From positions 1-41,613 of the forward strand of contig JAGHUI010000080.1 in NCBI GenBank assembly GCA_018064885.1: a stretch of 41,613 nt of DNA, given 5' to 3'. The stretch is from Candidatus Minthosoma equi (GTDB taxonomy: Bacteria > Bacteroidota > Bacteroidia > Bacteroidales > Bacteroidaceae). The translations under genes and the position numbers were made by a program. Positions 1,295 through 39,645 of the stretch are shown piece after piece. A model generated the notes under the pieces. The model worked only from the letters and a program-made list of their open reading frames with translations. It did not search any database and was not told the origin of the DNA. Each line of letters begins with the position of its first letter. Position 1 is the stretch's first letter.

Positions 1295-1522
1295 TATAAA
1301 ATTCTTAAATCATCAAATAATTATACAGACTATAATATACATATATGTGTAAGCAAGATTTACCACAAAATAGATCAGAAAAAAGGGTAGGGGAAAGGCT
1401 ATTTAAAAAGAAATATAATTACGTTTATTTGAAATGTAAAACATATAAAGAAAATAAAATATTTATTATCATAAACTTACATAATAATAATGAAAGTGTT
1501 TGCATAAGAAAAATTAGAAAAT

Positions 1523-1551
1523 GTGACAAATTATCAATACAGATTTGTCAC
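1523..1551. repeat. Inverted pair of iteron cores
   Basis: GTGACAAA (1523-1530) and TTTGTCAC (1544-1551) form an 8-bp inverted repeat with a 13-base spacer. The half-sites match the core of the direct iterons 500 bases downstream. Inverted half-iterons in iteron plasmids commonly act as Rep-dimer operators; that function is inferred here. Confidence 0.6.
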
Positions 1552-1681
1552 GTTATGAGCACGAAAAAAAAGGTGTACAGAATAAAGGAGATTTTTGCAG
1601 TTTAAATTAAAAATAAAAAGAAAAATATACATTGAAAATCATATAATTACAACATTAATAAAGAACATAATATAATACAGA

Positions 1682-1737
1682 TTTGTCACGGCAAATGATA
1701 CGAATTTGTCACGGTATTCTACTACAGATTTGTCACG
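1682..1737. repeat. Three inverted-orientation iteron cores
   Basis: TTTGTCACG occurs at 1682-1690, 1705-1713 and 1729-1737, spaced 23 and 24 bases apart. The first and third are preceded by ACAGA. They face the opposite way from the main array at 2038-2416. They may be additional Rep binding sites. Confidence 0.65.
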
Positions 1738-2037
1738 ATAATAGTTTAAATGTTTAAACGGATTAAGTTAAATATTTAATAATCAATTGAATGTGTAAAA
1801 AACTGTTTAAAATTATATGAAAATGTCGTGACAAATACCCTACAAAAAAAGAAAATAAAAGGGGGAGATAAAAAGCTGATTATTAAGATTATGGTATAAT
1901 AATTACAAATATATCTGAAAAGTTATTATCCTGTTAAGAACATAGAAGAAAGATCCTTCTTTTAAATATAAATAAGATAATATAGAATATATAGATGTCG
2001 CAATTTGTTGAAAATCAATGCTAATACTTGCAAAAAC

Positions 2038-2416
2038 GTGACAAATTACCTACATTTTGTGACGAATTCCAAATATAATTGTGACGAAAAACCAACAAAA
2101 TCAAGCAAAAATGTGACAAAATACCTATTCAAATGTAAAGGTGTGACGAATTCCCAAGTCAGATGTGACAGATTCCAAAGACAAAACAACATTCGTGACA
2201 AATACCCTACAAAGAAATAAGAGCGTGACAAAATACCAACATACACATATTATATAATATAGTGTGACAAATTCCAAAGTATTTTTTTAAGCCAACCAGG
2301 AATAGTTGCAATAATATATATAGTGTGACAAATTCCAAACAGCCATTGTATCGTGACAAATTCCCAAGTTGTGATTCTTCATGCAGGCAAAAAGTCTGTC
2401 GTGACAAATTCCCAAG
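2038..2416 (+). repeat. Iteron array: 12 direct GTGACAAAT-type repeats (candidate replication origin)
   Basis: Twelve copies of a sequence starting GTGAC(A/G) begin at 2038, 2059, 2081, 2113, 2143, 2165, 2195, 2225, 2264, 2325, 2353 and 2401. The fullest form is GTGACAAATTCCCAA (2353 and 2401). Variants are GTGACGAATTCCAA (2059), GTGACGAATTCCCAA (2143), GTGACAAATACCCTA (2195) and GTGACAAAATACCAA (2225). Most start-to-start distances (21, 22, 32, 30, 22, 30, 30, 39, 61, 28, 48) are near whole DNA turns, so most sites lie on one face of the helix. The array sits 280 bases upstream of a Rep_3 initiator gene and reads toward it. Direct iterons plus an adjacent rep gene define iteron-type origins. 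The array is unlike CRISPR because spacing and repeats are irregular. Confidence 0.88.
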
Positions 2417-2501
2417 ACGAAAAGTATCAGAAAAGCATGCATTCAATCAATACCAGAAACTATGTCAGAGAAGAATCTTTGCCAAAGAAAGCTAACACGA
2501 A

Positions 2502-2580
2502 TATGTCACGATGAATTGTAATTCACAATACGGATTTGTCACGATGAAAAGTATGTTTCATGAGAAAAATGAGTGGATAA
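2502..2580. promoter_or_regulatory. Putative repB operator with a DnaA-box-like site
   Basis: Two inverted-orientation iteron cores, ending in the shared string TGTCACGATGAA, start at about 2504 and 2537. They are 33 bases apart, about three helical turns. Between them is a 14-bp palindrome TGAATT-GT-AATTCA (2512-2525). At 2572-2580 the - strand reads TTATCCACT, one mismatch from the DnaA box TTATCCACA. The block lies 115-195 bases upstream of the repB start. This fits Rep autorepression and DnaA loading, but both roles are inferred. Confidence 0.5.
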
Positions 2581-2695
2581 ATGAAAGAAAATCATAGAAA
2601 GTTTTTGTAGTAAGAAAAAAAGTCTCATCTTTGTAACAAATTCTTACAATCAAGATTATAATTACAATCAGTATCACATTTACTAAAAAGAAACA

Positions 2696-4225
2696 ATGAC
2701 CAAATCTGCCGAACCCCAAAAGGAAGAGGTAAAGGTATCATCAAAAACAAAAAAAGCCCAAGACGAGTCAATCATGAAAAACCTGCCGCAGAATGTGGAA
2801 TGGATCAAACAGCCATACGCACTCTCGGTAATGAGAGGTGATCTGTCACTCACGCAGACTCACATCATGGTAGAACTCATGGGAGCCCTCCAGGTGAAGA
2901 TAAATGATTTCATTGCCCATATGGGTGAAGAAGGATATGCAGTCTTCAAGGAAGAGGACTTCGACACAGACGGACTCGCCCATGTTGATGTAAACCTTGC
3001 TGCCATCTCCAACCGACCTGATTACTACGATGAGGTAGAGAAGATGGCATACCGACTGCTCAATGCCACAATAAAAAAGCCAGAGCAAGTGGATGGCATG
3101 AAGATGATAAAGCTCTCTCATGTGTTCCATAGCATTCTTGTTCCATCAGAAGACAACGAGCGCAACCGCCGCAAAGGCTTCATCCGCTTCTGCTTCGACC
3201 GCACTCAGGCAAAGGATATATTCAATTTCACACGCTATAGCAAATACATCAAAGCTGTAGCACGAAACAGCAGCAGTCAATATACAAGCAGAATCTATAT
3301 GATCATTACAGCCTACAAGACCTTCGGTCAGTGGGAAGTAGAATATAGTGAGCTGAGAAAGATTCTGGGATTCAATGTCTATGAGCGTGGAGAGAACGGA
3401 CAGTGGAATTGGGTGGAAAAGAAATACACTGAATATCGCCAATTCAAGCGCCGAGTGCTTGCCACTGCAGCGGAAGAGTTGCGAGAGCTTGCCAAGAAGG
3501 GGGAAGCTGATTGCTATTTTGATTTCAAGGAAATATATCCAGCAGGCAAAAAGAACGGCACTCCAGAGAAGATCCTCTTCACCATCACTACCAGTGATCT
3601 CGGCAAACTAGAAAGTCATTCCGCATCGATGGCTAAGAAAATCATTGAGATTGAAGACTTCCTTAAGAAAGAATTCCTGTTCCGCACATCTGATATTCGT
3701 CAGATGATTCCTCGCATCAACGATGATAATGTTGACATCTTCATTGCAAAGATGCACGATATTAAAGCATATATTGATAAAGAAGATGGCAAAATTCTTG
3801 ACAAGAAGAAATATGCATTCTCTTCATTAAGAAATGTTATTGATGATTTTGAAGAAGTCATTGCTGAAGAAGTCAAGGAATACGATAAGATAAGCTCAGA
3901 AGAGGGTAGGGGAGAAGAAATGCAAAAAAGCAGACAACAGCAATCAGCAAACGTACGTTCAGAATGGGACGGAAAGTCTTTCACCGATGCGCCATTCCGT
4001 GATAAACTCATATCTGCCTTCACAGCGCGCACGTTCAATATGTATATGATGCAGATAAGAATCTTATCATACAAGAACGAAACCCTTGATCTTTTCATTC
4101 CTCACGAAGAGATTAGCGACTACATAGATTCCAATAATCTCATCACGCGATTGAAAGACGTGCTATCTGAAATCATCGGTAAAGTACAAACAATAAACTA
4201 TCTTGTAGGCATGAAGAATGTGTAA
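2696..4225 (+). CDS. repB: RepB-type replication initiator (Rep_3 family) with long C-terminal extension
   Basis: The 509-residue protein has the Rep_3 (PF01051-type) fold signature over about 30-305. It opens with IKQPYALSVMRGDLSLTQTHIM, followed by a first winged-helix part to about 160. The second winged-helix part contains FTRYSKYIKAVARNSSSQYT and WEVEYSELRKILGF (about 178-228). Such proteins bind iterons, melt the origin and load helicase. Usual family members are near 300-350 residues, so about 170 residues are extra. After a charged linker (about 375-425), residues 433-497 have the hydrophobic pattern of DnaA domain I (TFNMYMMQ, then LDLFIPHEEISDYIDSNNL). The iteron array and operator-like repeats lie directly upstream and a terminator overlaps the stop codon. 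No parA/parB pair lies in the adjoining sequence. A role as initiator of a plasmid-derived second chromosome is inferred. Confidence 0.92.
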   Translation: MTKSAEPQKEEVKVSSKTKKAQDESIMKNLPQNVEWIKQPYALSVMRGDLSLTQTHIMVELMGALQVKINDFIAHMGEEGYAVFKEEDFDTDGLAHVDVNLAAISNRPDYYDEVEKMAYRLLNATIKKPEQVDGMKMIKLSHVFHSILVPSEDNERNRRKGFIRFCFDRTQAKDIFNFTRYSKYIKAVARNSSSQYTSRIYMIITAYKTFGQWEVEYSELRKILGFNVYERGENGQWNWVEKKYTEYRQFKRRVLATAAEELRELAKKGEADCYFDFKEIYPAGKKNGTPEKILFTITTSDLGKLESHSASMAKKIIEIEDFLKKEFLFRTSDIRQMIPRINDDNVDIFIAKMHDIKAYIDKEDGKILDKKKYAFSSLRNVIDDFEEVIAEEVKEYDKISSEEGRGEEMQKSRQQQSANVRSEWDGKSFTDAPFRDKLISAFTARTFNMYMMQIRILSYKNETLDLFIPHEEISDYIDSNNLITRLKDVLSEIIGKVQTINYLVGMKNV

Positions 4226-4251
4226 CCGCACATTCTTCATGCTTTTTTTTT
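4209..4251 (+). terminator. repB terminator overlapping the stop codon
   Basis: The 14-bp arms GCATGAAGAATGTG (4209-4222) and CACATTCTTCATGC (4229-4242) pair perfectly. The TAA stop lies in the 6-base loop and nine T's follow. The last five codons of repB therefore form half of the stem. Confidence 0.9.
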
Positions 4252-4345: not shown

Positions 4346-6262
4346 ATGAAAACTAAAATTATCTATGCTATTACAGCAGTAGCAGTAGTTTTGCTGGCAT
4401 TTTTTTATCAGCAAAAGTCTCAAAATGAGCGCAGTAAAGAACAACCGCCAGCATCTGGCACATGGGACATCGTAGTTATTGGAGGAGGTGGCGCGGGACT
4501 TTGTGCCGCAGCACAGGCAGCACTTGATGGAAACACTGTTCTTGTACTGGAAAAAGCTGCTGAAATTGGTGGCAATACAGCCAAGTCTGGTGGAGTGTTC
4601 CAAAGCGTAACTCCTTATCTTGTTTGGGAAAAAGACAATCCAGATGCTGTCGAGGGAAAAGGCGACGATGGCAAGATGCATCCGAAGATAAAAGCGGTTA
4701 CAGGAAATTTAAATTCTCTGCGCAAATTGTTGGATTGGTCTGAAAAGCCTTTCGACACATCTTATTATAAGAATCATCCATTCCATCCAGGTGATGTAGA
4801 TGAACTTTCAAAGCATGGTGTTCACAGTGAGTATCTTCCAGTATTGAAAGAGTTGAAACAGGAAATCAGAACTTACTTAGCATGGGCAGAAAAGCAAATG
4901 AGTCAGGGCAAGAAAGAAACAGAGCTTGCTCTTTTTTCCACAAATAATCTGCATATCTTCCAGACATACTATGGTGGAGTTCGTCCAAGCGACGACGGCA
5001 CAGAGTGGTGCTATGGAGATGTTGAATTGGTGAGTCAGTTTGTCAAAGAAGGTCAGCAATTGAAACCTTGGCTCACAGAACTTGGCGTAAAGTTCAACGA
5101 GACACAATCGATTCTTGTAGGCATGCTTTATTATCGTGGCGTCAGCACATCTGGTGCAGAAGTCACAATTGATGGCAAGACCGAATTTTTTGAAGGCAAC
5201 AAAGGTATGTATGTCATGGCGCCTTATGCCGCTATTGTTAATTCCAATAAGAAAAATCTGGTTATGACAAATACTGCAGCCCGCGATCTTATCTTTGAAG
5301 GTGATCGCGTAAAGGGCGTTAATGCAGTACGCGAAGATGGCAGCAAGTTCAAGGCATTGGCAAAGAAAGGCGTGATTATTGCTACAGGCGGTTATGCTGC
5401 TAATATACAAAAGGTTGTAGAAACAAACAAGTATTGGTCAAGTTCCAATTTGACAACAGCGATCAAGACAACAAACAATCCTGCTATGCAGGGCGATGGC
5501 ATTTGGATGGCACAGGCAATAGGTGCAGATGTCACAGGTATGGGATGGACGCAGATGCTGCCATTGGCATTCGCAAAAACAGGAAATATCGCTTTTGGTG
5601 GTGTTGACAATGCAATTTTCATCAGTCCTAAAACAGGCAAGAGATATGTGGATGAGATGTCCGAGCGTGATGCTCTGAGTGTTGCAGCATTCGACAACGG
5701 CATTGAGTTTATGGGTGCAAGCGGTGCGCATTTCTATATTGTTGGCAAATACTCATTCGCATTTGCAAAAGCTGGTCCTCTTTTGCCAGATGGAGAGGGC
5801 GCTCAATATACTACAACCATTGCCCAGTTGCCAGATTTGCTGAAGAAGTTGGATATAAAGACTGATGCAAATACGATTATTCAGTCCATTCGTGATTATG
5901 ACGAAGCATTGCTTTCTGGCAAAAGTCCTGAAGGAGTTGGCAAGAAATATGCTACATACACGATTGGTGAGTCTGTTCGCAATGCCGACGGAACGTACCA
6001 GCGCGAGACTTACAATCTGGAGAATACTAAGCTGATTTTCAGAATCCTTGCTCCTGCAACTCACCATACTATGGGTGGCTTGCGCGTAGATACTGAAAGG
6101 CATGTGTTGGACACAAACGGCAACCCAATTCCTGGTCTTTATGCAGCAGGTGAGGTAACTGGCGGCATCCATGGCGGTAACCGTTTGGGTGGAAATGCAT
6201 TGACTGAGATTCTTGTATCAGGCAGAATTGCTGCTCGCAATGCATCAAAAGAAGGAAAATAA
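4346..6262 (+). CDS. Membrane-anchored FAD-dependent fumarate reductase-like oxidoreductase
   Basis: The 638-residue flavoprotein belongs to the fumarate reductase/flavocytochrome c family (FAD_binding_2). Residues 5-21 form an uncleaved-looking membrane anchor or signal, so the enzyme probably faces the periplasm. The FAD-binding GGGGAGL is at 46-52, with the ribose-binding acidic residue at the end of VLVLEK. Family catalytic residues appear present: Arg441 in SERDALS (proton-donor position), His573/His574 in ATHHTMGG, and Arg613 in GGNRLGGNA. Many relatives reduce fumarate, urocanate or other enoate acceptors. Neither a haem (CxxCH) domain nor an FMN-attachment domain is present, so the electron donor and substrate are unknown. 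It stands alone between the repB terminator and a repeat array. Confidence 0.88.
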   Translation: MKTKIIYAITAVAVVLLAFFYQQKSQNERSKEQPPASGTWDIVVIGGGGAGLCAAAQAALDGNTVLVLEKAAEIGGNTAKSGGVFQSVTPYLVWEKDNPDAVEGKGDDGKMHPKIKAVTGNLNSLRKLLDWSEKPFDTSYYKNHPFHPGDVDELSKHGVHSEYLPVLKELKQEIRTYLAWAEKQMSQGKKETELALFSTNNLHIFQTYYGGVRPSDDGTEWCYGDVELVSQFVKEGQQLKPWLTELGVKFNETQSILVGMLYYRGVSTSGAEVTIDGKTEFFEGNKGMYVMAPYAAIVNSNKKNLVMTNTAARDLIFEGDRVKGVNAVREDGSKFKALAKKGVIIATGGYAANIQKVVETNKYWSSSNLTTAIKTTNNPAMQGDGIWMAQAIGADVTGMGWTQMLPLAFAKTGNIAFGGVDNAIFISPKTGKRYVDEMSERDALSVAAFDNGIEFMGASGAHFYIVGKYSFAFAKAGPLLPDGEGAQYTTTIAQLPDLLKKLDIKTDANTIIQSIRDYDEALLSGKSPEGVGKKYATYTIGESVRNADGTYQRETYNLENTKLIFRILAPATHHTMGGLRVDTERHVLDTNGNPIPGLYAAGEVTGGIHGGNRLGGNALTEILVSGRIAARNASKEGK

Positions 6263-6288: not shown

Positions 6289-6368
6289 TTACGAGGTAAA
6301 GCTCAGCAGCATTACCTCGTAAAGCAGCTCAGCATTACCTCGTAAAGCTGAGAGTAATTACCTCGTAA
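6289..6368. repeat. Array of four TTACCTCGTAA sites at exact 23-bp spacing (copy 1)
   Basis: An 11-base near-palindrome, TTAC-N3-GTAA with centre CTC or GAG, occurs at 6289-6299 (as TTACGAGGTAA), 6312-6322, 6335-6345 and 6358-6368. Every start is 23 bases from the next. Spacers are similar (AGCTCAGCAGCA, AGCAGCTCAGCA, AGCTGAGAGTAA). The first and last copies are opposite in orientation, so the ends can pair: CCAAACAATTACGAGGTAA matches the end of the array with one mismatch and one bulge. It lies between the convergent flavoprotein and SH3-protein genes. A second array with the same geometry is at 23997-24076. Confidence 0.9.
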
Positions 6369-21388: not shown

Positions 21389-22033
21389 TTATTTCTTAGC
21401 TTCTTCCTTCTTTGCATCCTTCTTAGGAGCCTTTGAGTAGCGCTTGTTGAGAGCATTCACCACTTCCTCTGTTACGTCGTATGCCTCATTAGCATAGAGC
21501 ACATTGTCAATGCCAGATGACTTGCAGAGGATGAAGTCGAAGCCTTTTTCCTTAGCATAAGACTTAGTGAAGTTCTGGATTGTATCAGTGAGAGCCTGGA
21601 ACTCCTTCTGGTATTCCTCCTGAAGTGAGTTGCTGAGACGTGCCTGAAGAGCTTCGATGTCCTGCTGAAGCTTGCCGAGGCGAGCCTGCTCTGCCTCAAA
21701 CTGCTGCTGAGTGAACTGATTGCTTTGGTATTTGCGCTGGAACTCCTGTGCCTGTGCTGCAAAGCTCTTTCCCTTATCCTGAATAGTTGATTCTGCATTA
21801 GCACGCTTTTTTGCAAATTCTTCTTCAAGATCCTTGCACTTCTGGTACTGAGATGTGAGAGTATCGATAAGCACGAATGCAATCTTGTATGAACCGCCAG
21901 CCTTTGCTGTCTTTGCAGTTTCTGCACCTTCGTTAACAGATGGTGCTGGCTCTCCAGATTTGTCGCATGATGAGATGATTGCGCTTGCTGCAAGCATCAT
22001 AAGTCCGCTGAGGACAAGTGTAATTTTCTTCAT
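21389..22033 (-). CDS. OmpH/Skp-family periplasmic chaperone, predicted lipoprotein
   Basis: The 214-residue protein has a lipoprotein-type signal ending in ISSC, with the acylated Cys at residue 23. A low-complexity linker (about 24-46) leads into the OmpH/Skp domain, which begins KIAFVLIDTLTSQYQKCKDLEEEFAKK. The long coiled coil (about 65-145) is rich in Gln, Glu and Ala. The domain closes with YAKEKGFDFILCKSSGIDNVLYANEAYDVTEEVV. The tail is Lys-rich. Skp proteins hold unfolded outer-membrane proteins in the periplasm. A lipid anchor is unlike the soluble enterobacterial Skp. The gene lies 33 bases after a small membrane-protein gene and shares its promoter. Confidence 0.9.
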   Translation of the reverse strand: MKKITLVLSGLMMLAASAIISSCDKSGEPAPSVNEGAETAKTAKAGGSYKIAFVLIDTLTSQYQKCKDLEEEFAKKRANAESTIQDKGKSFAAQAQEFQRKYQSNQFTQQQFEAEQARLGKLQQDIEALQARLSNSLQEEYQKEFQALTDTIQNFTKSYAKEKGFDFILCKSSGIDNVLYANEAYDVTEEVVNALNKRYSKAPKKDAKKEEAKK

Positions 22034-22414: not shown

Positions 22415-23863
22415 ATGAACAATTCTGAACTTAAACCAAAACTTGTTTTCGACTATTTCAGTCAGATAAACAAAGTACCTCGTCCTTCAAAGAAGGAAGA
22501 GAAAATTATAGCCTTTCTGCAGAAGTTTGCAGAGGAAAACGGTTTGCCATGCAAGGTTGACGAAGCTGGCAATGTGCTGATCACAAAGGGTGCAACTCCT
22601 GGCATGGAAAACAAACCAACCGTAGTGTTCCAGAGCCACATGGATATGGTTTGCGAAAAGACAAGCGACAGAATCATTGACTTTGAAAACGATCCAATCG
22701 AGACATACATTGATGGCGAATGGATGCGCGCTAAGGGAACAACTCTCGGTGCAGACGACGGTATAGGCATTGCTATGGAAATGGCGTTGCTCACAGACGA
22801 TAGTGTGGCTCACGGTCCTCTGGAGTGCCTTTTCACTCGTGATGAGGAAACAGGTCTCACTGGCGCATTTGATTTGATGCCAGGATTCTTTACTGGCAAG
22901 TATCTCCTCAACCTTGATTCTGAGGATGAAGGCGAGATTTTCATTGGCTGTGCCGGCGGTGCAAACACGGAAATCACTCTCCCTTTAAGGATGACAGAGC
23001 TGCGCAAGAGTTATTTTCCTCTCCACATCTGTGTTGACAAACTCACAGGCGGACATTCTGGCGACGACATTGACAAGCATCGTGCAAATGCCAACAAGAT
23101 TCTTGTGCGTTTCATTGCGCAGGCAATGGAGAAATATGATGTGAAACTTGTTGATTTCCAAGGTGGAAATCTCCACAATGCTATTCCTCGCAACGCTGAG
23201 GCTGTCATTGCAGTGCCATTCCCAGACAAGGAGAACATCAGAGTAGATTTCAATATCTTTGCCAGCGAGATTGAGGCAGAATACAGCAATGAGAAGAATG
23301 TTCACTTCTTCCTTGAGAGTGCAGTGGGAGTTACTGAGTGTGTGGAGGATGAGCAAGCTTGCCAGATTATCCAGGCTCTTCTTGCTGTGCATAATGGTGT
23401 ATATGAAATGAGTGTTGATCTGCCAGGACTTGTTGAGACAAGCAGCAACCTCGCAAGCGTTCATTTCACAGAAGATAAGGTTATGAAGATTGTTACAAGT
23501 CAGCGTTCATCCATTGGCAGCCAGCGAATCGCTATGTCACAGATTGTCAGTGCTCCATTCAAGCTCATCGGTGCAGAGACTGTGACAGGGGAGGGGTATC
23601 CAGGGTGGAAACCAAATGCAGACTCTCCATTGCTGAAGACTGTAACTGCAACTTACGAGAAACTATATGGCAAGCAACCAAAGGTTCGTGCTATCCATGC
23701 TGGCTTGGAGTGCGGTTTGTTCAGCGAGAAATATCCAGGACTTGATATGGTAAGCTTCGGTCCTACACTTCGCGGAGTTCATTCCCCAGATGAGCGACTC
23801 CTTATTTCTACTGTCGATATGGTATGGCAGCACATACTGGAAATTCTCAAGACAATAGAGTAA
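22415..23863 (+). CDS. pepD: Aminoacyl-histidine dipeptidase (peptidase family M20C)
   Basis: The 482-residue cytoplasmic metallopeptidase would split dipeptides such as carnosine (beta-Ala-His) and other Xaa-His substrates. Visible M20 zinc-site elements are His75 and Asp77 in QSHMDMV, the bridging Asp in TLGADDGIG (114-115), and the catalytic Glu144/Glu145 in FTRDEETGLTG. Further conserved stretches are LLNLDSEDEGEIFIGCAGG, the dimerisation-domain GGHSGDDIDKHRANANK, and C-terminal HAGLECG and GPTLRGVHSPDE. Length matches PepD. It is a monocistronic unit with a strong terminator right after the stop. No signal peptide is seen. Confidence 0.95.
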   Translation: MNNSELKPKLVFDYFSQINKVPRPSKKEEKIIAFLQKFAEENGLPCKVDEAGNVLITKGATPGMENKPTVVFQSHMDMVCEKTSDRIIDFENDPIETYIDGEWMRAKGTTLGADDGIGIAMEMALLTDDSVAHGPLECLFTRDEETGLTGAFDLMPGFFTGKYLLNLDSEDEGEIFIGCAGGANTEITLPLRMTELRKSYFPLHICVDKLTGGHSGDDIDKHRANANKILVRFIAQAMEKYDVKLVDFQGGNLHNAIPRNAEAVIAVPFPDKENIRVDFNIFASEIEAEYSNEKNVHFFLESAVGVTECVEDEQACQIIQALLAVHNGVYEMSVDLPGLVETSSNLASVHFTEDKVMKIVTSQRSSIGSQRIAMSQIVSAPFKLIGAETVTGEGYPGWKPNADSPLLKTVTATYEKLYGKQPKVRAIHAGLECGLFSEKYPGLDMVSFGPTLRGVHSPDERLLISTVDMVWQHILEILKTIE

Positions 23864-23923: not shown

Positions 23924-23996
23924 GTGATTTTCTTTTTGTGTTGAAAATCATTGTGTTGTGATTGCGTGGAATGTTGTGCCGTATTTTGCTGATCAA

Positions 23997-24076
23997 TTAC
24001 CTCGTAATGCAGCACAGCATTACCTCGTAATTGAACGTTGCATTACCTCGTAAAGCTCAGAGTAATTACGAGGTAA
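23997..24076. repeat. Array of four TTACCTCGTAA sites at exact 23-bp spacing (copy 2)
   Basis: The 11-base near-palindrome occurs at 23997-24007, 24020-24030, 24043-24053 and, inverted as TTACGAGGTAA, at 24066-24076. Every interval is 23 bases, as in the array at 6289-6368. The last spacer (AGCTCAGAGTAA) nearly equals that of the first array (AGCTGAGAGTAA). The outer arms AATTACCTCGTAA and TTACGAGGTAATT are exact 13-base complements. It again lies between convergent genes (pepD and the 1443-residue protein) and between their terminators. The rest of the 23864-24233 gap shows only those terminators. Confidence 0.9.
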
Positions 24077-24233: not shown

Positions 24234-27200
24234 TTACTTGTTGAGGTACTTCTTACCATTCTTGATGATGATACCCTTGTAGTTGTCGCTTACACGCTGA
24301 CCTGCTACATTGTAAACAGCACCGTTAGAAATAGTGTTAGAAGTTACGCTTGCAATACCAGATGGATCTGGGAGTGTAGCAGCGATTGAGTAGTAAACAG
24401 GAGCGTCAACAATCTGATTTCCGCTGAGGTAACCATTGCTCAATGCGCTCTTGAATGCCCATGTGTTAGTAGTCTCGTCGTAGATGAGTTCCCATGCAGA
24501 ACCGTTAGTTCCATCCTGGTCCTTACCGAGTACGAATGATACACCACCTACGTTTGGCTGAGAGTTGAGGAATGTTGGGTTAGAGCCCCAGAGGCCGTAG
24601 TCAGCACCTGCTGGTGTGAGAGCCTTGAACTGGTAGTAAGTCTTACCTTCGATTTCTCTTTCCTCGAGCTTGAACTTAGGAGCAGCCTTAGATGTGCCCT
24701 GAGCCTCTTCGTAAGAAACCATTGCTACGTTCTGAGCGTCGTTGCCAACGAGAACTGTTTCTGTAGCCTGGTCGAAGATGTAGAGAGATTCAGCAGCGAG
24801 GAGATCCTCGATTGGAGCTGGGAGAGAAGCTGCGATTGTGTAGTAAACCATGTCAGAAACGATCTGGTTTCCGCTGAGATAACCACCGCTCAATGCGCTC
24901 TTGAGAGCCCAAGTGTTTGTAGCTTCGTCGTAGATGAGTTCCCATGCAGAACCGTTAGTTCCATCCTGGTCCTTACCGAGTACGAATGATACACCGCCTA
25001 CGTTTGGCTGAGAGTTGAGGAATGTTGGGTTAGAGCCCCAGAGACCGTAGTTTTCACCTGCTGGAGTGAGAGCGCGGAACTGGTAGTAAGTCTTACCGTC
25101 AATTTCTCTTTCTTCAAGCTTGAACTTAGGAGCAGCCTTAGATGTGCCCTTAGCGTCGTCGTAAGAAACCATTCCTACGTTCTGAGCGTCGTTACCAACG
25201 AGAACTTCCTTAGCAGCGATGTCATAGATGTAAACGTAGTCAGCAGCGAGGAGATCCTCGATTGGCATAGTTGGCTGTGGCTGTGGATCTTTCTTCCAAG
25301 TACCGTTCTTGATATCTTCACCTGCCTTCTTGAAGTCTTCACCTGTGAGGTAGAGGAGTTCGAAGTCGTCGAAGATTACCCAGTCAGAAGCGATAGCAGC
25401 AGTCTTGTCAATACCGATTGTGAGGTTGTCACCAGTTTCAATTGTGATCTGTACAGAGTTTGCAACGTCAGCTGGGTGCTTCTGGCATACCTGATAGAAG
25501 CCCTGCATAGATGCTGGATAGTAGTTGTCACCAACCTTAGTGTCGAATGGATATGCACCGTCAGCAACATCATCACCGTAGAGTTCTGCAGCGTAAGACT
25601 TAGCAGTGCCTTCGATAGCAACAGCCTTGTTTACGAACATATTGATAGTACCGTCAGACATTTCCTCAGAACCCCAGTCTGTAACAACTTCAGTGAATGA
25701 GTTTTCAGTGTAGTTGAGAGACTCGATAGCCTTGATGTAAGAAGTCTGCTTGTTCTTGTCGCTTGTAGAAGCGAAGAGACGAGCGTTGTGGTTAGCCCAA
25801 GCTTCTTCGTTGCCAGCTGCATTGTAAGCGTCAACGAGTTCCTGAGTTACAGACTGACCGTCACGGTAGATAGCCTTAACGCGGAGTTCGTAAGTACCAG
25901 CTGGGAGACCAGTGAGAACCTGAGAGAGTGTGAATGCAGACTTGTTCCAGAGTTCAGCGTTAGCCTTCTGGCCCTTCTCGTCAAATGCATATTCGTTGTT
26001 TGTAGGAGTTTCACCTGACCAACCGTTAGTTGGGTTGTTAGTGAAGTCTGGGTTGATGATCAAGCTTGTAATGTCTGTTGGAGCGTCAGCTGTTGCAGTA
26101 GCGCAACCCATAGCGTCCATGAGAGCGTAGCTGTAAGGAACAGCGAGTTCCTCGAGGTATGCGTTAATCTCTTCTGCAGTCTTCATAGCGGCTGTCATTT
26201 CTGCAGTCTGCTTCTTAATGATTTCTGCAACCATAGCGTTGTCGAGTGTAGCAGCCTTGTCGTAAACTTCACAATAAGATGTGTAAGCGTCAGCAATACC
26301 ATTGAGCTCGTCAACCTGCTCGTAAGTGTCAGTTTCTGCGTCACCGAAGTTTGTCATGTAAGTGAGAGCTGGCTCAACGAACTCGTGAGATGCGATATCC
26401 ATCATCTTATCGAATGCTTTGTACTTGCTTTCACCGTTAGAAGCGAGAGAAACGATTTCCTTAGCCTGAGTGTAGAGTTCGTATGCAGCGTTGTAGCCGT
26501 CGCTATCCTGAATAGGACGCATGTCAGCAATCTGAGCGAGAATGTCGTTTACTTTCTTCTTGTCACCAGCAAAAGTGAGTGCGTCAATAGTAGATTGAAG
26601 CTTGTCAATGTATTCACCAAGCTTTTCGTCAAAGTTAAGATTTTCACCGTAGAAGAAGAGACGGAAACCAGTGAAATTAGCAACACCAGTACAACGACCA
26701 CCAATCTTGAGCTTGCCGTCAAGAGCAGAGATGATAGAAGTTTCTACATCACTCCATACATTAGGATTCCATTCATACCAACCGTATGCAGCACCGTTAG
26801 GAGTATCAGAGTCATTCTTTACTGTTTCAGAAACAACGACTTCGCCCTTTGAATTTTCTGCATAAATTTCACGAGTTTGTTCACCAGCCCAGAAGTTACC
26901 ACGAACAAGACCCTTAAGGCTGTAGTAACCATTTGGAAGACCTACGAGAGCCTGCTCGATACCGATTGTACCAGAACTTACAGAGTTCCAACCGTCAGAT
27001 ACACCAACAACACCACCTTGGTACATAAGCTGGAGACCAGCAGACCAACCACTATATGCATTTACTCTATACCATTCGTTTGTTACATCATTAGATGGGT
27101 AAAGAGTTACGCCTTCACAGATGTCAACAAGATCTTTTGAAGCGAGGTTCATTTCTGCGTAAGCCTTTGGACAGCCCAAAGAACCACTGACGCTACCCCA

Positions 27201-37347: not shown

Positions 37348-38685
37348 TTATTCTTCTGAAAGAAGATTGATAGGATTTTTGTCGCTAATTTTTGCTCCCA
37401 TCTTGGTGAGTTTTCCGCAAGTTTGCAGGATGCTTTGACCTTGAGGAAGAAGTTTCTTTTCTCCATCTTCGTAAGCCTTTTGGGCAGCATCCAGAGCCTT
37501 GCCGATAGCAGAATATTTCTTCATGAACTGTCCCACACGATCTACCATTTCATTTGCAAGGGCAAAAACCTTCTCATGATTCTGTGCCTGCGAAATCTGC
37601 GTCCATGTGAGGTTCACAATCTTTATGGCAGCATAGAGAGTTTGCTCGTCAGCAATGAACACGTTTTTCTCCATCGCTTTTCTCCAAAGGTCGGGCTGTG
37701 CATTGAGGGCTGTCCAAAGGGCACCGCTATGTGGCACAAACATAATGACATAGTCCATTCGCATCTTAGGCGCGCAGACGTATGAAGAATAGTCCTTTGT
37801 TGACAATTCCTGCACATGACGCTGGATGCTCTTTATGTGTTCTTTCAGATGGTTCTGTCTTTCCCCCTCGTCTTCAGCATTCACATATTCTATATATTCC
37901 TTGAGCGAAACCTTCGAGTCGATGATGACCTCACGCCTTGTGTCAAGATGCAGAATGACATCCGGACGCATCATGCTGCCATCTTCCGACTTGATTATCT
38001 CGCCGTTAGCATTGCGGAGATAAGGCTGAGTGTCATAGTGAATGCCCTGTGTAAGTCCTTGTGACTGAAGTATTTCGTCAAGAACAGTCTCGCCCCAGTC
38101 TCCTTGTACCTTATTGCCATGCTTGAACACCCTTGTCAGTTCTTCAGCACTCTTTTGTGCAGCAGCACTTTGCCTCAGCATGTTCTCCACGTTAGCCCTC
38201 ATCTCTCCTGATATGGTTGATTGCTGCATCGTGTTCTCGTCCATAGCCTTCTTCATCTTATCAATCGTCTCGCGTAACGGATTGACAATCTGTCCAAGAC
38301 TCATGTTACTTGATTCAGAAAACTCCTTCTGGCGCTGCTTCAGCATTTCCTCCGTTGCGCCTTTCATCTCGGCAGTCACCCTTGCTAATGTCTCGTCAAA
38401 TCGGCGCTGCTGAGCATCAAGCATTTCTTTGTGGCGTGCCTCCTGTGCCGCCAAGCTTTCTGCATACGCTTTATCCTTGATTGCCAGTGTCTCAGCGCAT
38501 GATTTTTCTTTCATGCTGACAATCTCCTGGCAATGTTTTTCAGCATCAGATTTTATGTTTGCTATCATTGACTCAAAGTCAGCCTTCTCGTCATTTGTTT
38601 TTTTGTCATACATCATTTTGGCTGCGATAAAACCCGCAACCAAACCTCCTATGAGTCCTATAAATAAGTAAAGTACGATTTCCAT
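37348..38685 (-). CDS. rmuC: RmuC-family DNA recombination protein
   Basis: The 445-residue protein starts with a membrane helix (about 4-24, LYLFIGLIGGLVAGFIAAKMM). A long Glu/Ala/Gln-rich coiled coil (about 30-185) and the RmuC nuclease-like domain follow. That domain has the expected GNKVQGDWGETVLDEILQSQGL, RPDVILHLDTRREVIIDSKVSL and YVIMFVPHSGAL motifs. RmuC limits inversions at short inverted repeats in Escherichia coli; its biochemistry is poorly defined. It lies 27 bases after the methyltransferase gene in the same direction, so the two are probably co-transcribed. Confidence 0.95.
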   Translation of the reverse strand: MEIVLYLFIGLIGGLVAGFIAAKMMYDKKTNDEKADFESMIANIKSDAEKHCQEIVSMKEKSCAETLAIKDKAYAESLAAQEARHKEMLDAQQRRFDETLARVTAEMKGATEEMLKQRQKEFSESSNMSLGQIVNPLRETIDKMKKAMDENTMQQSTISGEMRANVENMLRQSAAAQKSAEELTRVFKHGNKVQGDWGETVLDEILQSQGLTQGIHYDTQPYLRNANGEIIKSEDGSMMRPDVILHLDTRREVIIDSKVSLKEYIEYVNAEDEGERQNHLKEHIKSIQRHVQELSTKDYSSYVCAPKMRMDYVIMFVPHSGALWTALNAQPDLWRKAMEKNVFIADEQTLYAAIKIVNLTWTQISQAQNHEKVFALANEMVDRVGQFMKKYSAIGKALDAAQKAYEDGEKKLLPQGQSILQTCGKLTKMGAKISDKNPINLLSEE

Positions 38686-38712: not shown

Positions 38713-39645
38713 TTATCTTCTTTTTGCGTTTCTTTCCCAAAAAACTCCATCTTCATATCCCTGAATGCTTTTGTCCTTCTCTGCATTTTCCAATCGCTTG
38801 GCAGCCCATAGGCAGTATTCCTCGTTCAGTTCTATTGCTAAGAAATGCCTTTCAAGTTTCTTTGCCACAACAGCAGCTGTTCCGCTTCCGGCAAAAGGAT
38901 CAAAGATGAGATCTCCTTCCTTTGAAGAAGCAAGCATCAGTTTGGCATATAGTTTTTCCGGTTTCTGAGTAGGGTGGTCTGTGTTTTCTGGCATTGACCA
39001 GAAAGGAATGCTTATGTCATCCCAAAAGTTTGAAGGACAAGTGAGTCTGTATTTTCCGTCGTCCGTATCTTCCCAGTCCTTTGGCATTCCATGATCTTTG
39101 TAAGGAGCTAATACCGAGCGCTTTATCTTTACAGCATCAAGGTCGAAGTAGTAGTCGTTCTTATTCTTCACGCCAAACCAGATGTCCTCCATTCCGTTTT
39201 TCCAATTGCTCTTAGCACCCTTGCCCTTTTCTCTCTGCCATGTGATACGATTAAGAATGGTAAGCTCTTCATTCATAATCGTTTGAAGTGCTGCCGTGCA
39301 TTTCCAATCGCCGCAAAGATATAGAGAACCATTAGGCTTCATCTTCATGCACACCTTGTGAAACCATGAACGAAGGTATGCCAGATAGTCCTCATCCGAA
39401 CGGGAAGAAAACACCATTTCGCCAAACGTCTTTTGAAGATTGTAAGGGGGATCAACAATTACCATATCGGCAATGCCATCAGGAATCTTGTCAATGACAT
39501 CAAACAAGTCGCCCAGAATGAATTTGTCCTTCCATTCCGTGCAATCATTAAGTTCGTCAGTCTTGACAAAACGTTCCGACAGTTCGCCTATTTCTTCGGG
39601 TTCAACTGTTATTGTCCTGTTATTTTTGGCTCTTATTTTCTCCAA
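38713..39645 (-). CDS. Orphan DNA methyltransferase (beta-class, N6-adenine or N4-cytosine type)
   Basis: The 310-residue protein has the catalytic motif DPPYN at 65-69 and the AdoMet-binding motif FDPFAGSG at 248-255. The catalytic motif comes first, which is the beta-class order, and the target-recognition region lies between them. The HPTQKPEKL segment (224-232) is typical of this group. DPPY rather than SPP(Y/W) favours N6-adenine methylation, although N4-cytosine cannot be excluded. No restriction endonuclease gene is next to it, so it is a solitary enzyme in this window, with possible roles in gene regulation or replication timing. The target site is not predictable by eye. Confidence 0.92.
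   Translation of the reverse strand: MEKIRAKNNRTITVEPEEIGELSERFVKTDELNDCTEWKDKFILGDLFDVIDKIPDGIADMVIVDPPYNLQKTFGEMVFSSRSDEDYLAYLRSWFHKVCMKMKPNGSLYLCGDWKCTAALQTIMNEELTILNRITWQREKGKGAKSNWKNGMEDIWFGVKNKNDYYFDLDAVKIKRSVLAPYKDHGMPKDWEDTDDGKYRLTCPSNFWDDISIPFWSMPENTDHPTQKPEKLYAKLMLASSKEGDLIFDPFAGSGTAAVVAKKLERHFLAIELNEEYCLWAAKRLENAEKDKSIQGYEDGVFWERNAKRR

Follow-up and report, generated by a model that had tools for sequence, protein, structure and literature searches.

The window analysed here is the whole of contig C14 (41,613 bp) of Candidatus Minthosoma equi, whose draft genome (G000) comprises 3.51 Mb in 114 contigs with a completeness of 97.6%. The gene rep (2696–4225, forward strand; open reading frame of 509 aa) encodes a Rep_3-type replication initiator, in which a winged-helix part is followed by a C-terminal module resembling domain I of DnaA, and an intrinsic-terminator-like stem-loop (4207–4244, forward strand) stands at its 3′ end. 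A dense set of iterons lies upstream of rep. Read together with related genomes, the locus probably provides a small chromid, a replicon of plasmid type with core genes on it, with its iteron origin and its initiator, in a genus of uncultured Prevotellaceae/Bacteroidaceae of which some come from ruminants.

The iteron consensus GTGACRRAW had 22 matches in the window, compared with 3.69 expected (standard deviation 2.02); the shuffle maximum was 10, and none of 100 shuffles reached 22. Nineteen of the 22 fell within 1523–2542, and the 1400 bp before rep held 14 forward and five reverse iterons, where 200 shuffles gave 0.17 on average and never more than 2. The main array (2038–2409, forward strand) consists of 12 direct copies of GTGAC(A/G)(A/G)A(A/T) with a start-to-start spacing of 21–61 bp, which frequently carry a TTCC(C/A)AA-like tail. 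Further upstream are a facing pair (1523–1551; direct copy at 1523, inverted copy at 1543), an inverted triplet (1681–1736, reverse strand; copies at 1681, 1704, and 1728) and, between triplet and array, a single direct iteron (1828–1836, forward strand) that is aligned in relatives. A lone inverted iteron (2534–2542, reverse strand) is a candidate operator for rep autoregulation. Directly beyond the triplet stands TGTTTAAA (1751–1758), the same in all eight aligned loci and a candidate for where the AT-rich unwinding region begins, and the AT-rich spacer at 1838–2030, with a guanine plus cytosine (GC) content of 24%, is a candidate DNA-unwinding element. The GC content was 27% over the 1400 bp upstream of rep and 22% over 1741–2030. 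The 12 direct repeats ahead of a Rep_3 gene, the inverted copies and the AT-rich flanks described in the first-pass annotation were all recovered, and its repeat count and coordinates were correct. The DnaA-box-like site that it also listed did not hold up: TTATCCACT at 2572–2580 has one mismatch, 12 such sites occurred in the window compared with 11.3 expected, which is chance level, and the site was not conserved among the aligned relatives. Furthermore, promoter-like elements for rep were found at 2604–2633 (forward strand), TTTG followed by CATCTTTG, read against what we take to be the Bacteroidota promoter consensus. Several relatives have TATCTTTG here, and an ATCTTTG block is conserved in their alignment.

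The comparison with relatives covered 45 draft genomes of the genus, of about 40–380 contigs each. Rep matches were found in 19 of them, with 69–100% identity in eight (the window's own genome included) and 23–41% in the other 11. In a family-wide search, 14 of 399 genomes, belonging to three of 30 genera, had a Rep match at E ≤ 1e-40, and the nine strongest were within this genus. Among named genome contigs, seven Rep relatives were found, all from uncultured Prevotellaceae, Bacteroidaceae or Bacteroidales; judged by length, six of these are contigs of six of the 45 genomes, and ONAG01000015.1 is additional. The stated sources of two of the assemblies were reindeer rumen and roe-deer rumen, and the RUG and RUI labels of others presumably denote rumen collections. 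Iterons preceded rep in all eight high-identity genomes and in ONAG01000015.1, with 10–14 forward and 3–5 reverse copies in upstream stretches of 1300–2600 bp picked per locus. The core alignment of origins comprised eight loci, with G006 left out, and the order of elements was common to the aligned loci: facing pair, triplet, TGTTTAAA, lone forward site, main array, and lone inverted site. The facing pair was present in eight of eight core-aligned loci, and G006 had no such pair by motif. The distance from its inverted member to the triplet was 138 bp in six of the eight, 137 bp in G032, and 135 bp in G008; the triplet itself was kept in all eight, with the middle copy changed in G008. The lone inverted site lay 150–264 bp upstream of the start of the rep match, in the same place in nine of nine loci and altered in G006. 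Moreover, the array was seen solely beside Reps of at least 69% identity. The three loci with divergent Reps that were checked (G001, G009, and G025) had no array and only 0–1 sites within 2.5 kb upstream, which would be expected if Rep and iterons change together.

Rep is strongly conserved among the relatives. The Pfam family Rep3_C, the second winged-helix domain (WH2) of Rep_3 initiators, was matched above the cut-off (E = 2.4e-5), and the WH2 part also matched the Pi protein of R6K (E = 0.0024). For the first winged-helix domain (WH1), Rep3_N was found at just E = 0.07, below the cut-off, and an NCBIfam scan of Rep gave no match. The AlphaFold model of whole Rep was poor, with a predicted local distance difference test (pLDDT) score of 58; the best PDB match was domains 2–3 of RctB (E = 0.004), at a template modelling (TM) score of only 0.16–0.25. 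The C-terminal module is encoded at 3965–4213 (forward strand; approximately residues 424–506), and its best fold match was DnaA domain I (PF11638), with 13–20% identity. A profile–profile comparison of two C-terminal sets was suggestive only, with a probability of 32% and an E-value of 0.0005. DnaA domain I assists helicase loading. By analogy of fold, the initiator may bring in the helicase by itself through this module.

A number of results count against that assignment of the tail. The sequence match to DnaA domain I remained below the Pfam cut-off (best E 0.014 in clade A, six of seven; best E 0.0035 among other Reps, three of seven), and two matching tails scanned singly scored 12.2 bits compared with the PF11638 cut-off of 24.6. 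The window's own tail gave no DnaA_N match in Pfam. AlphaFold modelled the tail with confidence in only one of five models (86.7, compared with 54–61), and Foldseek gave no match at E ≤ 0.001, the best being 0.0018. Searched against PDB sequences, the C-terminal profile returned nothing at E ≤ 10, and a second such profile returned just four unrelated weak matches. Nothing on a DnaA-domain-I-like tail in a Rep_3 initiator was found in open-licence PMC text at listing level. The window's own genome carries a second plasmid-type pair, ParA with a Rep of 520 aa, on G000:C77 (L079; 289–3697). That ParA is 43% identical to the chromid ParA, and its Rep is about 25–28% identical to the window's Rep, with a tail that aligns with the DnaA_N-matching tails and itself has no Pfam match.

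The form of the replicon was clearest in the relative G032. Its Rep contig, C12, is 54,475 bp long and has an exact terminal overlap of 99 bp, so it closes into a circle of about 54.4 kb. The Rep contigs of G026 (65.3 kb) and G041 (63.6 kb) span the G032 junction, with rmuC inverted in G041. The G032 sequence in turn joins both ends of the G026 contig, save for about 5 kb without a match, and two contigs of G029 (44.1 and 34.4 kb) complete the G032 map. A linear stretch of chromosome would not easily produce such a circular permutation across species. A terminal overlap was found neither in the other 11 sequences tested, several of them partial stretches, nor in the whole of G009:C51. The scan of 30 proteins of the G032 circle identified ParA and the small gene behind it, NrdD, PurN, RmuC, LemA, a protein of CobW type, a SusC/SusD pair and surface proteins; the gene after NrdD is activase-like (Fer4_12) and, to judge by its position, NrdG. 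Twelve of the 45 genomes had the chromid ParA with at least 88% identity, among them all eight with a high-identity Rep.

The core genes nrdD, purN, and rmuC gave one match each (E ≤ 1e-50, 1e-20, and 1e-30, respectively) in G032, G026, G029, and G041, and all lay on Rep or ParA contigs. None of the 12 genomes searched for the large chain of class I/II ribonucleotide reductase (PF02867) had it, compared with a match in 11 of 14 control genomes; nrdD is therefore probably essential, and probably the sole route to deoxynucleotides. It shared a contig with Rep or the chromid ParA in seven of the 12 ParA-positive genomes. Moreover, nrdD (any subtype), purN, and rmuC were jointly absent in five of the 45 bins (G010, G012, G022, G031, and G034, the last two near-identical in rpoB, so that the bins are not all independent), compared with 0.63 expected, and none of 20,000 permutations reached this count. 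Pairings with rpoB, phoH or rluD showed no excess of joint absence across the 45 bins. For the 14 high-quality genomes (completeness ≥ 90%, contamination ≤ 5%), nine of 42 chromid-gene cells were empty, compared with none of 42 for rpoB, phoH, and rluD. This is the pattern that one separate replicon, frequently missed in binning, would give. The missing-gene lists were compiled by hand, and "rmuC present" pools 18 genomes with at least 58% identity and 18 with 30–37%. Two NrdD subtypes were observed in the chromid lineage (G000:C30, 33868–36075; G032:C12, 14535–16628), an NF005497/TIGR02487 type and a TIGR02827 type in different species, and they were apparently exchanged while remaining on or beside the replicon. 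In addition, G035:C28 and G007:C125 carry purN and an nrdD with a different Rep (24–27%), as if the core-gene set had been kept and the replication module swapped.

The replicon was set against the chromid criteria of Harrison et al. 2010, as they are given in a passage of PMC6090056. Plasmid-type replication and maintenance functions are present, with the Rep_3 gene, the iterons, and ParA on the same G032 circle. Core genes that are chromosomal elsewhere are also present: nrdD, purN, and rmuC are on the replicon in four relatives and on the chromosome in G036. Compared with just two to three chromosomal pieces per genome, the GC content of the chromid was within about 1–2.5 points in G032, G026, and G029, more distant in G041, and mixed in G009. 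As for inheritance, Rep distances were correlated with those of rpoB (r = 0.67, p = 0.010), and so were ParA distances (r = 0.65, p = 0.004; 0.57 and p = 0.018 without G009).

The sister genome G036 (98% complete) shows the gene block in another state. Neither a high-identity Rep nor the chromid ParA was found in it. On G036:C2 (63.9–101.3 kb of a 148.8-kb contig), the block from just past rep to DUF4421 is largely collinear, with the purN segment inverted and the two-gene parA segment missing between cobW and DUF4421. The block is flanked on its right side by genes that, read from sequence, are efp, rluD, and ddl, and soj/parB- and mutL-like genes lie on the same contig. A second site, on G036:C6 (approximately 141.4–144.0 kb), has nrdD and its partner adjoining phoH among chromosomal genes. 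At both sites, the flank was conserved and free of chromid genes in ten of ten relatives examined (G021 was seen at the efp/rluD site over just 5.1 kb, short of efp), so that fusion looks rare and recent. G036 grouped with G026 and G029 in the rpoB tree (support 92/72), which, together with the empty sites in the relatives, favours reabsorption of the chromid over the reverse.

In the window's own genome, the chromid genes are spread over C14 (the window, with rep and rmuC), C30 (nrdD beside ParA), and C62 (purN). The rmuC copy in the window (37348–38685, reverse strand; RmuC domain) is the genome's single match at E ≤ 1e-30. The sole PF13597 match of the genome is on C30, directly before the chromid ParA; this NrdD is of the other subtype than in G032, and in G014 that subtype is located on the Rep contig. 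The window gene at 4346–6262 also has a 54% match on the G014 Rep contig. Judged by gene content, the replicon here probably includes C14, C30, and C62, at least 112 kb in all, and is likely free.

Several observations weigh against the chromid reading. All of the genomes compared are drafts. The GC-skew check proposed in the first-pass annotation was uninformative, with no consistent sign change at the iterons, whether on the own contig (1-, 2-, and 4-kb windows) or at 11 related loci (4-kb windows). The chromid GC content of G041 (0.527) is a loose match to that of its chromosome (0.435–0.486). On the rpoB tree, which lacks G011, G028, and G032 as no rpoB was found in them, the chromid ParA label was scattered, with eight changes, a number as low as which was also reached in 320 of 500 shuffles. 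The scatter could stem from incomplete bins, losses or transfer, and vertical inheritance is accordingly supported by the distance correlation alone. Furthermore, three ParA-positive genomes (G006, G008, and G011) had nrdD on a contig other than that of Rep or ParA, and in two more (G028 and G030) no nrdD was found. As regards the window itself, contig C14 has no terminal overlap and ends inside an open frame, at the threshold used it shares nothing with the G032 circle besides rep and rmuC, and C30 also carries secG, by which the own chromid would be larger or fused.

The open contig leaves room for co-integration into the main chromosome, in which case the iteron origin would be a second, perhaps still active, origin there. 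The gene block in the chromosome of G036, near the efp/rluD-like genes and beside phoH, is a precedent for this explanation, and C30 of the own genome links nrdD and parA with secG and a gene reading as lptE. However, G036 has lost Rep and the chromid ParA, while the own genome has both intact with Rep strongly conserved, and the fusion sites of G036 are empty in the relatives. Fusion in the own genome is therefore considered unlikely. The first-pass annotation had named a chromid origin and a plasmid origin fixed in the main chromosome as its two candidates. The chromid is the better reading, by virtue of the G032 circle and not for the reasons first given; fixation in the main chromosome was indeed found for the gene block in G036, though there without rep.

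An ordinary accessory plasmid with spare copies of housekeeping-like genes, or such genes as cargo, is a much poorer explanation still. A Rep_3 initiator, iterons, and ParA are a standard plasmid kit, related Reps (about 23–28%) occur on Bacteroides-type plasmids, with 31 of 38 matching records typed as conjugative, and carbohydrate-degradation cargo fills much of the window in the Pfam scan. The core genes, however, are single matches on the replicon in the four relatives named above, no other class of ribonucleotide reductase was found, the gene order of the circle is conserved between species, and no conjugation family was matched among the 30 G032 proteins scanned. To our knowledge, core genes are not expected on Rep_3 iteron plasmids. 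Finally, binning of plasmids into metagenome-assembled genomes is unreliable and the genomes of the genus are drafts, but mis-binned plasmids of other organisms are hardly credible here, as the same block is chromosomal and largely collinear in G036, the Rep and ParA distances follow rpoB, otherwise complete genomes would be left with no ribonucleotide reductase at all, and the dinucleotide distances between chromid and chromosome (23–46 in five genomes) overlap or fall below those among chromosomal samples (34–105, a range inflated by short samples).

For the chromid, a mode of action can be proposed from the anatomy of the origin. Rep would bind the GTGACAAAT iterons of the main array as well as those of the inverted triplet and of the facing pair, bend and open the adjoining AT-rich DNA, and repress the rep promoter by way of the lone inverted site at 2534. 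Judging from the fold, its C-terminal module might directly recruit the replicative helicase. Partitioning would fall to the dedicated ParA and the small gene behind it (both on C30 in the own genome), and the replicon would be retained through genes that the cell cannot lose, in the relatives the only ribonucleotide reductase found among them. A more far-reaching version is put forward only tentatively, and we hold it to be rather doubtful as a whole: Rep may be a fusion of a plasmid Rep with a DnaA-domain-I module that loads the helicase itself, a 54-kb chromid bearing the cell's only ribonucleotide reductase may fire without DnaA at its origin, and the genus may show both free and reabsorbed states of the chromid, the latter with rep and parA lost. 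This version loses a little weight because the window's own tail gave no DnaA_N match.

The remainder of the window holds further genes. An OmpH domain (21389–22033) and an M20 peptidase/aminoacyl-histidine dipeptidase (22415–23863) are present, like rmuC, as the first-pass annotation had stated; pepD and ompH, which it named as normally chromosomal, were not shown to be diagnostic. An extracytoplasmic function (ECF)-type sigma factor (740–1219; Sigma70_r2/r4_2) is divergent from the origin region, and downstream of it a small protein (147–734) had no Pfam match. A DNA methylase (38713–39645; N6_N4_Mtase) adjoins rmuC. A 450-bp unit occurs in two tandem copies with 87% matches at 24363–25265, within a frame of 1463 aa. 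Moreover, intergenic short arrays at 6296–6368 and 23996–24053, with 23-bp units and a ATTACCTC core, are possibly one dispersed repeat family. The frame at the contig end (40397–41613, 405 codons) runs off the contig and matched L-fucose isomerase below the cut-off. Over the whole window, neither Rfam at its gathering threshold nor a tRNA scan gave a match.

Compared with known systems, the replicon would work like the iteron chromids of Vibrio and resembles the second chromosomes of Prevotella. As with ori2/RctB of Vibrio cholerae, the initiator gene lies next to an iteron origin that combines replicative and regulatory sites, and the replicon carries core genes. It is 54–79 kb in the relatives, compared with approximately 1 Mb for V. 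cholerae chromosome 2 in a passage of PMC6090056; furthermore, the iteron consensus here contains no GATC, the initiator has the DnaA-domain-I-like tail, and the host belongs to another phylum. The second chromosome of Prevotella intermedia and the 568-kb replicon of P. nigrescens (0.57–0.87 Mb) likewise combine a Rep_3-type gene with core genes. The P. nigrescens record is labelled as a plasmid and is read by us as a second chromosome; its Rep is 27% identical to that of the window and its NrdD is 81% identical to that of the relatives. The relevant passage of PMC4755523 places a Rep_3 gene at the start of the P. intermedia second chromosome, gives no iterons near it, and calls the origin unknown. 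These Prevotella replicons are about ten-fold larger, and the P. nigrescens Rep (388 aa) is too short for the C-terminal domain. The Rep_3 iteron plasmids (F with RepE, R6K with Pi, and the pBF9343 type of Bacteroides) share the winged-helix initiator, as seen in the Rep3_C and Pi WH2 matches, and direct repeats beside the Rep genes are known for F and R6K from a passage of PMC4980987. The pBF9343 Rep (385 aa) stops before the C-terminal domain that is present in the window's Rep. Compared with DnaA domain I itself, the Rep tail is C-terminal instead of N-terminal and is fused to a winged-helix Rep, with an identity as low as that given above. In the literature on rumen Prevotella megaplasmids and on nrdD in chromids, nothing pertinent to this replicon was found at listing level.

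The replicon differs from these Vibrio and Prevotella replicons in its size, in the tail of its initiator, and in that the only ribonucleotide reductase found lies on it. The locus provides a compact, well-conserved candidate origin for a kind of replicon related to the second chromosome of P. intermedia. Reported chromid sizes range from 0.04 to 4.00 Mb in a passage of PMC12456017, and a 54–79 kb replicon with the genome's only ribonucleotide reductase found is near the lower end of them. A replicon with such a gene also runs counter to the reported rarity of essential genes on plasmids, which such genes can destabilise according to a passage of PMC8297927. As some species have the gene block on a free replicon and a sister species has it in the chromosome, the genus offers a natural setting in which to test chromid formation and reabsorption.

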